A stretch of 64,000 nucleotides of DNA, taken from NCBI GenBank assembly GCA_016873225.1, contig VGXS01000004.1:62001-126000 (forward strand), read 5' to 3'. The DNA comes from Planctomycetota bacterium (GTDB lineage: Bacteria > Planctomycetota > Planctomycetia > Gemmatales > Gemmataceae). Of the stretch, positions 15,917 through 21,908 are shown in pieces. Position numbers and translations under genes: made by a program. Below the pieces are notes generated by a model that was not told where the DNA came from, searched no databases, and was given only the letters and a program-made list of their open reading frames with translations. Numbering within the stretch: position 1 is the stretch's first letter; each line of letters begins with the position of its first letter.

Positions 15917-17400
15917 CAGACTTCTCCCTGTCGTTTTTGCCGACTCCGCCACCAGCGCAGGGCATGGCCGGGCAATGTCATCGCGGCGACAATCCTTGCG
16001 CGGAGTCCCCCTGCGTGGCCAGCCTGCAAAAGGGCTTCCAGCATATCCCCCATGTCCGGATGCCCGGGTACGGCAAGCTCATAGTGCGGCCTGAATGAGC
16101 CATGGCTTACCCTGACGACCTGATGAACCGTCATTTCAAGGAGCCCTTCCGCACCCTGAGTGGCGCCCCAACCGCTGGAACCGCTTCCGCCAATCGGCGT
16201 GTCGGGATGCCCAGCTCCCACCAGCACATCATTCACCGTCACCATGCCGGCCCGCAACTTCGTCAGGAAAGATTTGGCCGGGCCGGGACTTCCGAAAACC
16301 GCGGCCCCCAAGGCAAACGGGCAAGCCAAGTCCGCCTCGATCATCGACCTTTCATCAGCGCATTCCATCATGGCCAAAAGGGGGGCGAAGCAGTCCTCGC
16401 GCCAAATTCGCATCCGCTCGTTGACATTTCCAACCACGAACGGAGGCTTGTCCGGTGAGTTTCCAAGCCAGCGCGCACCCATGGATACCGCTTCCATGGC
16501 AAGGCTTTTCGCATGGTCGATCCGCTCTTGGAAACCGGCGGGTTTGGCCAATTCCAGTGGTGGAACATCAAGGATCAATCTCGCGATTTCATCCCGGAAC
16601 GGAATCATCAGCGACGAGTCCAAAAGGCACCGTCGGGTTGCCAGGCAGGTTCGGCCCGAATTAGCAATGGTTCCAAACCAGGCGGCGCGAGCGGCCGCGA
16701 TCGGGTTCCCTCCCGGCAGCAGGAACAACGCGTCATGCCCTGAAAGCTCAAGGGTGCTTGAGACCAGGCGGGGAGCCAGCGCCGAGGCGATGCGTGCCCC
16801 CACAGCCCGGCTGCCCGTGAACACGACATAATCGACGGAGGAGTTCACCAGTTCCTCGCCCGCCGCGATCTCAGCATCGAGCAACTGGATCAGGCCGCGG
16901 GGCAATCCGCTCCCCGCGATTCCATCCGCGAGCAAGCGGCAGGTCTCCGGAGCCTTTTCCGAAGGTTTGAAAATCACGGCGTTTCCCGCGACCAGCGCCT
17001 GGGCTATCTGGGTTCCCGAGAGCACCAGCGGATAGTTCCAGGTACCGATGATTCCCACCACGCCGCGCGGCCGGCGATGAACATGATCGCTTCCCCCGGC
17101 CAAATACCAAGGAGTTCCACGGGCCCGACGAGGCGCCAAAATTTCGGGAGCGATTCGGGAGAGGTGGGCGCATCCGCTGGCCAGTGGATGAATCTCGGAC
17201 GCCAGGCATTCCTCGCGCGGCTTTCCCACCTCGCGGTCGATCGTCTCGCATATTTGTCTTGAATGGCTGGCCAGCCAGGCCCGAAACACGGATAGCCATC
17301 GGCAGCGTCGGCGGACGGACATGGCGGCCCAATCCGCTTGCGCGGTCCGCGCCAACTCGATTGTTTTCCGCATGCGATCCGGCACGCTCGCTTGGATCAT
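15916..17400 (-). CDS. Aldehyde dehydrogenase family protein
   Basis: About 494 aa from the ATG at 17400, which has a weak purine-rich AGGGA upstream; ATG 17427 is an alternative, and still longer versions would overlap truD. Family motifs are clear: GTWNYPLVLSGTQIAQAL, FKPSEKAPET, VFTGSRAVG, the general-base glutamate in LELSGHDALF and the catalytic cysteine in NSGRTCLATRR. The enzyme should oxidise an aldehyde with NAD(P)+ in the cytoplasm. The specific substrate is unknown. The last 70 residues are longer than usual and include a basic helix. It overlaps the serine hydrolase gene by one base and is divergent from truD. Confidence 0.88.
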   Translation of the reverse strand: MIQASVPDRMRKTIELARTAQADWAAMSVRRRCRWLSVFRAWLASHSRQICETIDREVGKPREECLASEIHPLASGCAHLSRIAPEILAPRRARGTPWYLAGGSDHVHRRPRGVVGIIGTWNYPLVLSGTQIAQALVAGNAVIFKPSEKAPETCRLLADGIAGSGLPRGLIQLLDAEIAAGEELVNSSVDYVVFTGSRAVGARIASALAPRLVSSTLELSGHDALFLLPGGNPIAAARAAWFGTIANSGRTCLATRRCLLDSSLMIPFRDEIARLILDVPPLELAKPAGFQERIDHAKSLAMEAVSMGARWLGNSPDKPPFVVGNVNERMRIWREDCFAPLLAMMECADERSMIEADLACPFALGAAVFGSPGPAKSFLTKLRAGMVTVNDVLVGAGHPDTPIGGSGSSGWGATQGAEGLLEMTVHQVVRVSHGSFRPHYELAVPGHPDMGDMLEALLQAGHAGGLRARIVAAMTLPGHALRWWRSRQKRQGEV

Positions 17401-17456
17401 CGGTGGCGCATCCCTACCGTGGGCCATTGGGAATCGGACTTCGGAGGTCAAGCGAC

Positions 17457-18521
17457 ATGTCATCAGGTTACGGAGTCCGGCGGATTCTTGGCGACTTGCC
17501 GCCTCTTGGCGGTCGTATCAAGGCGTTGCCAGAGGATTTTGTCGTCGAGGAGTTGCCCGCGTACGAACCGTGCGGTTTAGGCGGTTTCCTTTACCTTTGG
17601 GTCCAGAAACGGGATTTCCCCGCGGAACGATTGGCAAGGGAAGTCGGCCACAGGCTGGGCATCAGGCCTCAGGATGTTGGAATCGCCGGCCTGAAGGACC
17701 GCCGCGCGGTTAGCCGCCAATGGATTTCCGTTCCGGACTCCTGCTCCGACCGCCTGACGGACTTTGATGACGAATCATTGAAAATATTGGCGGTCAACCG
17801 ACATGGGAACAAGCTTCGCGCCGGGCACACCCGCGGAAACAGATTCCAAATCCGCATCCGTGACTTGCCAGGCGAAAGCGTGGGCGAACTTCAGCGCCGG
17901 ACCGAATCGCTTCGGGCCAAAGGAATGCCAAACGCGTTCGGACCGCAACGATTCGGACATGGGGGTGAAACCGCCAGACTTGGCTGGGCCCTGGTGCGGG
18001 GCGAGCGTCCCCGATTGAATCCATGGTTGAAAAAATTGGCCTGCTCCGCCGTTCAGTCGGACTTGTTCAATTCCTGGCTGGACAGGCGTATCGCCGACGG
18101 GCTTGAAAGGCGGGCCCTTGAAGGGGATGTGCTGGCCCACAGTCCGAGGGGCGGGATGTTCGTTTGCTCCGATCCTGCATCCGATCAGCCGCGGCTTGAC
18201 AGGCTTGAGGTCGTTCCCGCGGGCCCCATGTTCGGTCAGAAGATGCTTCCGGCATCATCCTCGGCGCTAGAACGGGAGCGAGAGCTGTTGCTTGCGCGGG
18301 ATCTGGATGCCGGCTGGTTGCCCGAGGGCTCTCTTTTCGCCGGCACTCGGCGGCGCGCCCTCGTGCCCGTTCCCGACCTCGCCATGAGCCACGATCAAGA
18401 GGGCGTGACCTTGGGCTTCAGCCTTCCTTCCGGCAGCTATGCCACCGTGCTGCTAGCTGAACTGCTGGGGATTGATAGCAAGACTTCGGGTGGAGAAATA
18501 CTGGATGAAGACGGGGAATGA
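17457..18521 (+). CDS. truD: tRNA pseudouridine(13) synthase TruD
   Basis: 354 aa from the ATG at 17457, nine bases after GGAGG (17443-17447); the longer frame would run antisense into the aldehyde dehydrogenase. TruD motifs are present: LPEDFVVEELPAYEP at the N-terminus, GIAGLKDRRAVSRQW with the catalytic aspartate, NAFGPQRFGHGG in the TRUD insertion domain and LPSGSYATVLLAELL at the C-terminus. The enzyme isomerises U13 in tRNA. A hairpin with a following T-rich stretch lies 27 bases after the stop. Promoters for truD and the aldehyde dehydrogenase must share the short divergent gap. Confidence 0.94.
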   Translation: MSSGYGVRRILGDLPPLGGRIKALPEDFVVEELPAYEPCGLGGFLYLWVQKRDFPAERLAREVGHRLGIRPQDVGIAGLKDRRAVSRQWISVPDSCSDRLTDFDDESLKILAVNRHGNKLRAGHTRGNRFQIRIRDLPGESVGELQRRTESLRAKGMPNAFGPQRFGHGGETARLGWALVRGERPRLNPWLKKLACSAVQSDLFNSWLDRRIADGLERRALEGDVLAHSPRGGMFVCSDPASDQPRLDRLEVVPAGPMFGQKMLPASSSALERERELLLARDLDAGWLPEGSLFAGTRRRALVPVPDLAMSHDQEGVTLGFSLPSGSYATVLLAELLGIDSKTSGGEILDEDGE

Positions 18522-18548: not shown

Positions 18549-18571
18549 CAGCTGGCAACCAGCTGCTGTTT
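18549..18571 (+). terminator. Likely terminator after truD
   Basis: CAGCTGG and CCAGCTG form a seven-base-pair stem with a CAA loop (18549-18565), followed by CTGTTTTG. It begins 27 bases after the truD stop. The stem contains two CAGCTG hexamers. Confidence 0.55.
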
Positions 18572-18660: not shown

Positions 18661-19440
18661 ATGTCACCCAAGTCAGCAACTTCAACCGGACACGATCTCG
18701 ACAACTTCACCGTCCCCGAGAAGATCCTTCTCGCGGGGGACGAACTTGTCCGGACGACGGGCCAACCATCGTTTACCGCCGAAGCCCTGATCGTGGCCTC
18801 GTGGCGCAAGTATCCCCAGACCTTCGGGCTCAAGGGCTTCGCCGATCTTTATCCCGATTCCAACAAGATTCTCGCGAGCATCATGGGCGAGAAGGGCCTG
18901 GCCAAGAAAGGCTGGCTTAACAAAGTGGGACAAAAGCTTTACGAATTGACCAAGGAAGGCAGGGATGCGGTGAAGCGCCTCAAGGCCGGGGAGCAAGCCC
19001 CCGCCCCGGCGCCCGCCAAGGTCCAGCCCGCGCCGGCGGCACCGGCAGCCGAGGCGAAGCCGACGCCTCCCGCCGCGACGGCGCGTTCGGTGAAATCCGC
19101 GTTCCCGCTCCCAGTGGATGCCGCGCTTCTGCGCCTCCTCGACGGGGCGGTATTCAGCAAGCACATGGAAGACCGGACCTCGGACATCAGCTTCGCCGAC
19201 GCCTGTGAGTTCTGGGATGCCGACCCGGCCTCCGGCGCCGAGAGCGTCAAGGAGAAACTGTCCAGCCTTCGTCCGGAACTTGAAAAGGCCGAAACGATGC
19301 TGTCATCGGGCCCGCTTGAGCTAAGCAACGGCAGGAGTGTCGAATCAGCCGATGTCTCGCTGCTGAAGACGCTTAACAATTACCTACTGGAGAGGTTTTC
19401 ACGGCACATCAACCTCGTTCGCAGCAGGTCGGGCAAATGA
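18661..19440 (+). CDS. Unrecognised protein with winged-helix-like N-terminal domain
   Basis: 259 aa from the ATG at 18661, just after GGAAGGA. Residues about 15-95 look like a winged helix: a helix in SFTAEALIVASWRKYP, a second in SNKILASIMGEKGL, a wing, then LYELTKEGRDAVKRL as in many small DNA-binding regulators. An Ala/Pro-rich linker (about 97-150) leads to a helical C-terminal domain with VDAALLRLLDGAVFSKHM and a last helix ending in RSRSGK. I do not recognise the family. Its stop is one base from the stop of the converging DNA methyltransferase. A link with that enzyme is possible only by position. Confidence 0.7.
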   Translation: MSPKSATSTGHDLDNFTVPEKILLAGDELVRTTGQPSFTAEALIVASWRKYPQTFGLKGFADLYPDSNKILASIMGEKGLAKKGWLNKVGQKLYELTKEGRDAVKRLKAGEQAPAPAPAKVQPAPAAPAAEAKPTPPAATARSVKSAFPLPVDAALLRLLDGAVFSKHMEDRTSDISFADACEFWDADPASGAESVKEKLSSLRPELEKAETMLSSGPLELSNGRSVESADVSLLKTLNNYLLERFSRHINLVRSRSGK

Positions 19441-19441
19441 A

Positions 19442-20413
19442 TCATCCGGCGGTCTTGCGCTTGGCTGGATGGTCGAACCTGAGCCTTGATCCCTCGACAT
19501 ATTCAGGATTGATTTCCATTCCGAGCCACCGCCTCCCGAGGGTCTCGGCCATATAACCGACCGTGTTGCTTCCCGCGAAGGGATCCAGCACCAGATGGTT
19601 TTCATCGCTGAGAAACTTGATGAAGAACTCGGGAACAGGCAACGGAAACCTGGCCGGATGGATTTGCAACCCGGCGGCCCGGCACTTGGCGAAATAAGGA
19701 TCAGCCGACCTGGTGTTGGGAACCATGAGCATGTTGGGCGGAATCGCCCCGCCGTTGTCCTTCTGGAATACCTTGCTCAATTCATGCTGGGATGGGCGCA
19801 TCGCCGGATCATAGCCGTCACGCAGCAAACGCTTCATGGAGGGGCTGTAAGGTCGCAAGACCTTGCGGTTGTCAGCGCGCGGTTCGGTGGTCTTCGACAA
19901 CCACCAAACCAGGTTGACGGCATCTTTCACGCGAGTGCGCCGGATCGTCACCCATTGGGCTGGGGTGGGAAGCTTGCTCGGATTGAACCAGTAGAAGTCC
20001 TGCGCCAAAAAAAAGATCCTCGAAAGCTGCAGAAGCAGCTCATACTGGTACAGCGACCTTGTGCCGGATCCCCTGTTCCAGGCGCCGCCAAGTTCCAGCA
20101 CGAAGCTGCCTTTTGGATGCAGCACCCGGTGGATCTGTTCCACATACGGCCAAAGCCAGGCGGCGTAATCGGCCGGTTCGACATTGCCATAAGCCTTCCG
20201 GCGCCGAAGGGCGAATGGAGGCGAAGTGACGACCAGGTCGATGGAGGCGTCGGCAAGCGCGCTCATGCCATCAAGGGAATTGACATTCCAGCATTGGCCC
20301 AGCGGCGTGGAATAGGCCGCCTCGGGAGCCTTGGCCCCCGGCCTCACGGGAATGAGCGACTGTGTGACCAACGGATCCTTCCCCCCGGATGGATGCGAGG
20401 GGCGCCAGTACAC
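19442..20413 (-). CDS. Site-specific DNA methyltransferase, PvuII-like (N4-cytosine type)
   Basis: 323 aa with a GTG start at 20413; a shorter start is possible. The catalytic motif TSPPFALRRRKAYGN comes before the SAM motif DPFAGSNTVGYMAE, the beta order of amino-methyltransferases. SPPF is typical of N4-cytosine enzymes. Between them, FYWFNPSKLPTPAQWV and RVKDAVNLVWWLSKT closely resemble what I remember of M.PvuII, which modifies CAGCTG; the match is from memory, not an alignment. No restriction endonuclease or C protein is visible on either side, so it seems an orphan enzyme, perhaps for genome marking. It follows the dus gene by 36 bases. Confidence 0.85.
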   Translation of the reverse strand: MYWRPSHPSGGKDPLVTQSLIPVRPGAKAPEAAYSTPLGQCWNVNSLDGMSALADASIDLVVTSPPFALRRRKAYGNVEPADYAAWLWPYVEQIHRVLHPKGSFVLELGGAWNRGSGTRSLYQYELLLQLSRIFFLAQDFYWFNPSKLPTPAQWVTIRRTRVKDAVNLVWWLSKTTEPRADNRKVLRPYSPSMKRLLRDGYDPAMRPSQHELSKVFQKDNGGAIPPNMLMVPNTRSADPYFAKCRAAGLQIHPARFPLPVPEFFIKFLSDENHLVLDPFAGSNTVGYMAETLGRRWLGMEINPEYVEGSRLRFDHPAKRKTAG

Positions 20414-20449: not shown

Positions 20450-21538
20450 TCACCAGTGGGCAATCGGGCCATCCGGCACCGGCACGGCATGGTCCACCGG
20501 TTCCCAGGCGTCGCCGGCGCGCTGGGCGACCCTTTCCTCGACCCTGTTGGCCAAAGTTTCGAAATGATCGATGCTCCGCAGCATCACCAGTTCCTGCTGG
20601 AGGTCGTGCCCTGGCTTGAGCGCCTTGCAATACCAGCCGGCAACTTTTCGGAAGGTGAGGCAGGCAAACCGCTCGTCCCGGATGGTCGAGAGAAGGTGGA
20701 AATGCCTCCGCATGAATCGCAGCCTTTCAATGGGATCGGGGCCAGGGCCGGGGTCGCCAGTGCGGTCCCACGCGTCAAGCTGCCTGAAAAACCAAGGGTT
20801 CAAGAACGCTCCCCGACCTATGGCCAACCCCGCGCAACCGGTTTCCGCAAGCATGCGGGCGGCATCGGCGAGTGTCTTCACATCACCGTTTCCAAGAACG
20901 GGAATGCCACGGGCCGCCTCCACCACCTTCCGGATTCCGGCAAGGTCGACACCCCCGGAAAAACCCTGTTCGCGCGTCCGGCCATGGATGGTGATGGCCT
21001 TGACCCCGACAAGCTGGAAAGCGCGCGCGAGGTCCGGCGCGGTATGGCTGGCGGCATCCCAACCCAGTCGCATCTTCACCGTCACGGGCACGGCGACCGA
21101 TTCGACCACGGATCGAACCAGGTCGACCGCCTTCCCCACATGGCAAAGGAGGGCCGAACCACCGCCTCCCTTGGTGACCTTGTTGACCGGACAGCCCATG
21201 TTGATGTCGATGCTGCTGGCTCCAAGCGACTCGACCTTGCGAGCGGCCGCGGCAAGTTCCCCTGGGTCGGCACCATAGATTTGCACGGCCCAAGGCCGAT
21301 CTTCCGGGGCTGTCATGACAAGGTCGAGCGTTTTGGCCGAACCCAGAAGCAGGGCGCGCGCGTTCACGAGGTCGGTGGTGGCCAAACCCAACCCACCCAT
21401 TTCCCTCACCGCGAGCCTGAATGGCAGGTTGGTGTATCCGGCCAACGGGGCAAGACAGAACCGGCTCGGGAGTTCGAGGTCTCCCAGGCACAGCGGTTCG
21501 CCCGGAACGCGCGAAGGAATAGCCAGTTCCAGGGGCAT
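20450..21538 (-). CDS. dus: tRNA-dihydrouridine synthase
   Basis: 362 aa from the ATG at 21538, eleven bases after AAGGAG in the last codons of the preceding gene; the longer frame would overlap that gene heavily. It is an FMN-dependent TIM-barrel enzyme: APLAGYTNLPFR at the start, VQIYGADPGELAAAA, INMGCPVNKVTKGGGGSALL with the catalytic cysteine, ITIHGRTREQGFSG, VLGNGDVKT and AIGRGAFLNPW. It reduces uridines in the tRNA D-loop using NADPH. It resembles the DusB group most, but the target position cannot be assigned. It follows the pterin dehydratase gene by seven bases. Confidence 0.93.
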   Translation of the reverse strand: MPLELAIPSRVPGEPLCLGDLELPSRFCLAPLAGYTNLPFRLAVREMGGLGLATTDLVNARALLLGSAKTLDLVMTAPEDRPWAVQIYGADPGELAAAARKVESLGASSIDINMGCPVNKVTKGGGGSALLCHVGKAVDLVRSVVESVAVPVTVKMRLGWDAASHTAPDLARAFQLVGVKAITIHGRTREQGFSGGVDLAGIRKVVEAARGIPVLGNGDVKTLADAARMLAETGCAGLAIGRGAFLNPWFFRQLDAWDRTGDPGPGPDPIERLRFMRRHFHLLSTIRDERFACLTFRKVAGWYCKALKPGHDLQQELVMLRSIDHFETLANRVEERVAQRAGDAWEPVDHAVPVPDGPIAHW

Positions 21539-21545
21539 TCCCGGG

Positions 21546-21908
21546 CTACTCCTTGTCGTGAACGAACTTGCCGGGATTTCCCTTGAGGGCGGAACCCGCA
21601 CTTGGGCGCCAAAGGGCGACATCCTCGATCTTTCGAGCCAGTTCGATGTCCATTTCGGTGAGCCCCCGGTGGCTATGGGTTTTCAGCTTCACGACCAACC
21701 TCCCCCAAGTCACCTCAAGGTCGGCATGGTGCCATGCCGCCTCGCACGCATATCCCACCGCGTTGACCAACATCAGGGTGGCCGGCCATCCATCGGTGCT
21801 GTATTTCCGCCGGATCCAGCCATTTTCAATGAACCAATTGGCCAAGCCGGCCTGGTCGAGTTTTTCCCGAACCACATCCTCGGCCAGCACCTGAATGTCT
21901 CTGGACAT
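21546..21908 (-). CDS. phhB: 4a-hydroxytetrahydrobiopterin dehydratase (pterin carbinolamine dehydratase)
   Basis: 120 aa from the ATG at 21908; a start six codons earlier is less likely. The family core is WHHADLEVTWGRLVVKLKTH then RGLTEMDIELARKIE. The first histidine pair is followed by Ala-Asp where most members have HHP. The C-terminal extension of about 25 residues is unusual. The enzyme dehydrates the 4a-carbinolamine of tetrahydropterin; no phenylalanine hydroxylase lies near, and many bacteria use such proteins in other pterin or molybdopterin contexts. It is the first gene of a dus-methyltransferase run on the minus strand. Confidence 0.85.
   Translation of the reverse strand: MSRDIQVLAEDVVREKLDQAGLANWFIENGWIRRKYSTDGWPATLMLVNAVGYACEAAWHHADLEVTWGRLVVKLKTHSHRGLTEMDIELARKIEDVALWRPSAGSALKGNPGKFVHDKE

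Follow-up and report, generated by a model that had tools for sequence, protein, structure and literature searches.

Regulation by N4-methylcytosine (m4C) is poorly understood, and to our knowledge most orphan methyltransferases have no known reader. In the CfrBI restriction-modification (R-M) system, methylation at the system's own site is reportedly involved in the control of its expression; that system is said to have a restriction enzyme, unlike the locus described here. Among orphan enzymes, the CTAG methylase family of Halobacteria (cHG U, HVO_0794) is presented, in the available part of the source, as conserved, with an under-represented target motif and a role that is left open (PMC6471742). 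In Synechocystis, the GGCC enzyme M.Ssp6803II (sll0729) produces m4C at sites that overlap the -35 region of two promoters, and a reporter test backed repression by methylation for one of the two, according to the accessible portion of that report (PMC6560206). The GGCC enzyme DmtB of Anabaena is reported, in the part of the source at hand, to be alpha-class (PMC3425538). The orphan CTAG methylases of Halobacteria and the m4C effects at -35 sites of Synechocystis are close parallels of the locus that we analysed here, which lies in a DNA stretch of 64,000 nucleotides (the window).

The methyltransferase and its neighbours

The features of the locus are collected in Table 1. The methyltransferase ORF is intact and encodes 323 aa as opened, and the plus-strand reading of the same interval is interrupted by a stop. 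The likelier start is the TTG at 20371, with GGGGGGAAGGA just 5' of it, which gives 309 aa. The protein matched the Pfam model N6_N4_Mtase (PF01555, E 5e-34), and when it was compared with solved structures by phmmer, M.PvuII (1boo) was the best match with E 9e-94, the second best having E 4e-12; across nearly its whole length it is nearer M.PvuII than other solved methyltransferases. The catalytic TSPPF motif is N-terminal to the cofactor motif DPFxGSN, which is the beta order. In the alignment with M.PvuII, 140 of 283 positions are identical, divided into 74 of 124 in the part from FFLAQDF to HPARFP, which we take to hold the specificity region of a beta-class enzyme, and 66 of 159 in the rest. 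By these sequence features the enzyme belongs to the M.PvuII subfamily of the beta-class N4-cytosine methyltransferases, in agreement with the original prediction. Judging from the homology to M.PvuII, the conserved 74/124 part and the CAGCTG sites before wh, its target is most likely the inner C of CAGCTG, which would be modified to m4C.

Table 1. Positions of the genes and of the CAGCTG pair in the window.
Feature	Position	Strand	Description
truD	17184..18521	plus	tRNA pseudouridine synthase D; upstream of wh; conserved neighbour
CAGCTG site 1	18549..18554	.	upstream of wh, between truD stop and wh start
CAGCTG site 2	18560..18565	.	11 bp from site 1, between truD stop and wh
wh	18661..19440	plus	259 aa; predicted DNA-binding protein of winged-helix type whose C-terminal part is helical; tail-to-tail with the methyltransferase
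Methyltransferase ORF	19442..20413	minus	beta-class M.PvuII-like N4-cytosine DNA methyltransferase (TSPPF motif first, DPFAGSN motif last)
dusB	20450..21622	minus	tRNA dihydrouridine synthase (TIGR00737, E 2e-91); just upstream of the methyltransferase, same direction

The flanking genes had been described as a tRNA-modifying enzyme and a winged-helix-like gene, and both descriptions held, the former being dusB, which probably forms one transcription unit with the methyltransferase, and the latter wh. The wh gene had then been passed over; it proved to be a partner that is conserved alongside the enzyme and has CAGCTG in front. Its ORF opens at 18571, and relatives favour the ATG at 18661 as the start. 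No significant match to wh was obtained in Pfam, NCBIfam or PADLOC. The AlphaFold2 model of wh reached pLDDT 86 and pTM 0.48, and owing to this pTM the mutual placement of its two parts is not fixed. Residues 15-112 resemble the winged helices of MukF, ORC1, PadR and MarR (Z about 9-11, low sequence identity), and Foldseek alone gave no match to the model with E <= 0.001; the resemblance places wh among the predicted winged-helix proteins. This part is also the most conserved one in wh. The C-terminal part is predicted to be helical, and no conserved acidic/lysine cluster or evident nuclease motif stood out in it. We found no description of the methyltransferase-wh pair in the literature searched, which was poor in subscription papers.

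The original prediction had also stated that no restriction partner is visible, and this was confirmed for the R.PvuII type. The R.PvuII model PF09225 gave no match in the assembly of this genome (4.25 Mb, 82% complete; the built-in controls of the search were silent), and the nine ORFs scanned with Pfam around the methyltransferase matched neither an endonuclease nor a helix-turn-helix controller family. As a positive control, the same model was matched in 3 of 30 other genomes (G013, G020 and G090), where an R.PvuII homologue lies within ~350 bp of an M.PvuII-like gene in divergent orientation, and all three of these PvuII-type R-M pairs are within the window's own family. These matches mean that the PF09225 search is able to detect such nucleases and that PvuII-type R-M pairs are evolutionarily near. 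The locus itself does not count as a PvuII-type R-M system by this search, in which the 82%-complete assembly gave no R.PvuII homologue, and an unrelated nuclease that cuts CAGCTG may be present in the genome.

Distribution, descent and pairing

Of the 95 family genomes, 41 encode the enzyme at close to full length and with 59% identity or more, and 44 encode wh (E < 1e-30). Both genes are present in 39 genomes, the wh-type enzyme alone in 2 (G029 and G049, where wh was not detected), wh alone in 5, and neither in 49; the enzyme adjoins wh in 34 of its 41 carriers. In Mantel tests, the distances among enzymes were correlated with those of wh (r 0.88, n=24), dusB (r 0.81, n=18) and truD (r 0.60, n=13), each with P 0.0005, and because they track those of all three genes, vertical descent of the enzyme is indicated. 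As judged from these comparisons, the methyltransferase is solitary and has been kept by descent across a lineage without an R.PvuII-type nuclease.

The arrangement varies in several genomes. For example, wh is kept between truD and dusB without the enzyme in G069, and the truD-wh adjacency is kept in G001, G033 and G093 though the enzyme sits elsewhere. A divergent form of both genes is tail-to-tail in G016, G087 and G092, with no truD or dusB in the stretch examined, and in G089 a divergent enzyme and wh are 4.5 kb apart. Between these two genes of G089 lies an Hsp90-like ATPase gene (L049:4662-7094, minus strand; PF13589 1.4e-8, PF00183 1.1e-6). Outside the family, a Sedimentisphaerales contig (L114) has a wh-methyltransferase operon with overlapping reading frames, and an Armatimonadetes contig (L173) has the two genes tail-to-tail. 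Directly upstream of wh on the latter is an ORF of 782 aa (L173:6586-8934, minus strand) without a Pfam match, presumably a GHKL-type ATPase by its motifs. Beyond the family wh is scarce, being found in 2 of the 392 phylum genomes sampled (this genome and G415), and an M.PvuII-like enzyme at E <= 1e-30 was found in 31 of the 392, including G415, in which the enzyme copies and wh are on different contigs.

In a tree of 63 enzymes, of which 25 rows fall in no group, the 30 wh-linked enzymes are on one side of a single branch (support 90/78, found in 94% of 200 bootstrap trees), and the three R.PvuII-linked enzymes make up a separate, fully supported group. In the 49 cyanobacterial loci the enzyme has no wh within the flanks examined, and other relatives likewise have no wh nearby. 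Cyanobacteria of the Nostocales type commonly carry a solitary M.PvuII-like enzyme of about 55-60% identity (L110-L172, 49 loci; e.g. L138:4947-5855), with a GDSL-lipase-like gene near it in 45 of the 49 loci and a psaA/psaB gene in 26; no R.PvuII homologue was found in the three cyanobacterial genomes tested. In addition, two genomes of genus g30 (G068 and G070; L040:4956-5939 and L041:4973-5929) have kept wh and carry a different M.PvuII-like enzyme elsewhere, for which no R.PvuII homologue was found; it looks as if the original enzyme had been replaced.

CAGCTG before wh, before a TPR-protein gene and across genomes

The CAGCTG positions listed in the original prediction were all correct, and the second site before wh had been missed. 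In this genome only 2 pairs of CAGCTG have a gap of 30 bp or less (0.43 expected), one of which is the pair before wh. This pair is conserved in G056 and G057, with different bases between the sites in G057. The genome's second close pair, at L208 and present in L209 too, showed no clear promoter role. A pair with fixed 11-bp spacing may serve as an operator throughout the family, but the evidence for this is no more than suggestive.

The question of CAGCTG before wh was raised by the window's own genus. In the 230 bp before wh, CAGCTG is present in 21 of 35 dereplicated loci, with 2.3 expected from tiles of the same loci, and it is the commonest 6-mer there, the next one reaching 14 loci. These upstream regions hold 27 sites in 8,050 bp, and the remaining intergenic DNA at these loci, 13,680 bp in all, holds 5 (P 2e-17; the P values ignore shared descent except where the genus is the unit). 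By genome, the site was found before wh in 26 of the 41 scored vs 1.9 expected, and by genus in 12 of 21 vs 1.2 expected. Three of the 44 genomes that have wh (E < 1e-30), namely G064, G070 and G079, are not among the 41, and the expected counts by genome and genus, for this promoter and for the TPR promoter below, were taken from genome-wide CAGCTG densities. Of the 26 hits, 2 fall inside the end of truD (G004 and G075), and the other 24 lie past the truD match or come from genomes in which truD gave no match for comparison. The position relative to wh varies among genera, 15 of the 41 genomes have no CAGCTG there, and G068, G069 and G031 have the site without a wh-type enzyme. On the coding strand, TGTAGC is also present in 10 of the 35 upstream regions of 230 bp (0 on the other strand), and it is a possible second element.

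A further promoter came from G058 and G085, which belong to different genera and have close CAGCTG pairs before homologous TPR-protein genes. CAGCTG is within 250 bp upstream of the TPR orthologue in 18 of 38 genomes vs 2.0 expected, and by genus in 8.5 of 21 vs 1.35 expected; the 38 comprise 37 of the 41 genomes with a wh-type enzyme and also G043, which has an enzyme fragment of 54% identity. The TPR gene had no match in G062 and G081 and only weak matches in G086 and G044. This gene was chosen post hoc, after the site pairs had been seen in G058 and G085, and the evidence from it is weaker than that from the wh promoter; when the two discovery genera (6 genomes, all with the site) are left out, 12 of 32 remain. 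There was no such site in G044 and G031, before the TPR genes of this genome (G000), G056 and G057, or in any of the 8 genomes of classes 2 and 3 plus G036, class 3 being a mixture of two R-M genomes and G088. Among genomes without the enzyme, 0 of 21 had the site before the TPR gene, which is weak evidence since these genomes are poor in CAGCTG anyway (median 43 vs 154 per Mb). Taken together, at least one of the two genes, wh or the TPR gene, has a site before it in 31 of 34 genomes, and G028, G051 and G043 have it before neither. In G085, G058 and G059, the TPR-upstream site is between apparent -35 and -10 boxes, as judged by eye.

The original prediction had seen no evident strong depletion of CAGCTG, and the counts contradict it. 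The window holds 6 sites vs 16.4 expected from dinucleotide shuffles, and 464 kb of this genome hold 17 vs 78 expected from a Markov model; no palindromic hexamer that is expected at least 10 times has a ratio below this 0.22. With the window excluded, the ratio is 0.17 (rank 1 of 49), and the entire assembly has 224 sites in 4.25 Mb. Depletion as a general product of the enzyme was rejected, however, as the pooled ratio is 0.33 over 18 stretches of 20 kb from ten genomes that lack the enzyme vs 0.97 at enzyme-bearing family loci and 0.90 at the 49 cyanobacterial loci. Within the family, depletion and the presence of the enzyme do not go together, so depletion is no proof of specificity. A deamination scar, in the form of an excess of CAGTTG/CAACTG, was not seen (ratios 0.85 and 0.93). 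The median density is 154 CAGCTG per Mb in the 41 carriers vs 43 in 37 genomes without the enzyme, 17 of the 95 genomes with other or partial enzymes or wh alone being left out. The residual sites are mostly coding, with 5 of 17 intergenic in G000 (13% non-coding DNA) and 7 of the 41 examined, out of 100, in G058 (15% non-coding DNA); these proportions give no support to a global CAGCTG promoter regulon. One 57-kb contig of G058 (C28) holds twelve of about 50 listed sites (100 in all) and is perhaps recently acquired DNA.

Possible roles of the pair and comparison with known systems

We propose that the solitary, vertically inherited m4C enzyme and wh make up a two-gene module that works as a methylation-coupled regulatory circuit, a proposal that we regard as about evenly balanced. 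The enzyme, probably co-produced with dusB, would mark CAGCTG throughout the genome, and its targets would include the single or double site ahead of wh as well as, in other genera, the site ahead of the TPR-protein gene. Whether these few promoter sites are methylated would then affect transcription, or how wh binds at its own promoter, and enzyme and wh together would act as a small methylation-coupled regulatory circuit. We infer the CAGCTG specificity, the methylation itself, the DNA binding by wh and the effect on transcription from sequence, and the pair is a candidate epigenetic switch. More tentatively, it may be an undescribed epigenetic module, present from Gemmatales to Sedimentisphaerales and Armatimonadota, in which wh reads CAGCTG methylation in its own promoter and in one or a few target promoters.

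It is also conceivable, if rather doubtful, that wh is a common transcription factor that regulates its own gene through an operator in which CAGCTG occurs by coincidence, and that the enzyme is a chance ancestral neighbour. The persistence of sites before wh in the three genomes without a wh-type enzyme (G068, G069 and G031) fits this, as does the truD-wh adjacency that outlasts the enzyme's presence there (G001, G033 and G093), whereas the recurrence of the pair anew in other settings and taxa (the L114 operon, L173, G016, G087 and G092) and the co-divergence of wh and enzyme (r 0.88) argue against it. Protection is an unlikely role: the enzyme might be kept as a 'vaccine' that shields CAGCTG against PvuII-type R-M systems circulating in the family, such as those of G013, G020 and G090, and the higher CAGCTG density of carriers (154 vs 43 per Mb, 41 vs 37 genomes) would agree with this. 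However, this density may reflect only lineage and composition, this genome itself is strongly depleted of CAGCTG, and both wh and the sites before it would be left unexplained.

We consider it very unlikely that wh acts as an effector of a kind not recognised so far, either restriction-like or abortive, in which case the pair would be a new R-M or toxin-like system guarded by methylation. The two-gene pairing across phyla with changed gene order does resemble R-M pairs, and the strong CAGCTG depletion of this genome fits such a reading, but the C-terminal part of wh is predicted to be helical and has no standout acidic/lysine cluster, wh has no PADLOC match and persists without the enzyme in G069, and the enzyme-bearing loci, when pooled, are not depleted (0.97). 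Still less credence can be given to the enzyme being the remnant of a PvuII R-M system whose endonuclease has been lost; the original prediction had entertained a restriction-system relic. Although the homology to M.PvuII and the depletion in this genome would suit a relic, the ORF is intact, the enzyme is vertically inherited in 41 of the 95 family genomes and conserved with its neighbours, and the R.PvuII-linked enzymes are a separate, fully supported group in the tree.

The methylation-coupled circuit that we favour can be compared with several known systems. With M.PvuII (1boo) the enzyme shares the beta-class motif order, the TSPPF motif and 140 of 283 residues, including 74 of 124 in the specificity-bearing part. 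It differs from M.PvuII of the PvuII R-M system in that the window genome has no R.PvuII homologue, and in that its conserved partner is a predicted winged-helix protein and it is inherited vertically with dusB. Within a single bacterial family, then, these enzymes are found side by side as members of PvuII-type R-M pairs and as solitary forms. A GGCC specificity was considered because many relatives of the enzyme are cyanobacterial, and it was set aside by comparison via DmtB, which is alpha-class in the available part of its report, whereas the family of the window enzyme is beta-class (PMC3425538). Like M.Ssp6803II, the window enzyme would be an m4C enzyme with sites at promoters, and it differs in that the GGCC motif of M.Ssp6803II is a frequent one (PMC6560206). 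With the CTAG methylases of Halobacteria it has in common a conserved orphan state and an under-represented target motif; the motif is another one, and the part of that report at hand describes no DNA-binding protein that is dedicated to the methylase and has the motif ahead of its gene (PMC6471742).

At this locus a conserved orphan enzyme is accompanied by an conserved partner, predicted to bind DNA, and the candidate target sites are very few and precisely placed. With such a partner and so few sites, the reading of an m4C mark in a bacterium can be addressed with two proteins and two promoters.
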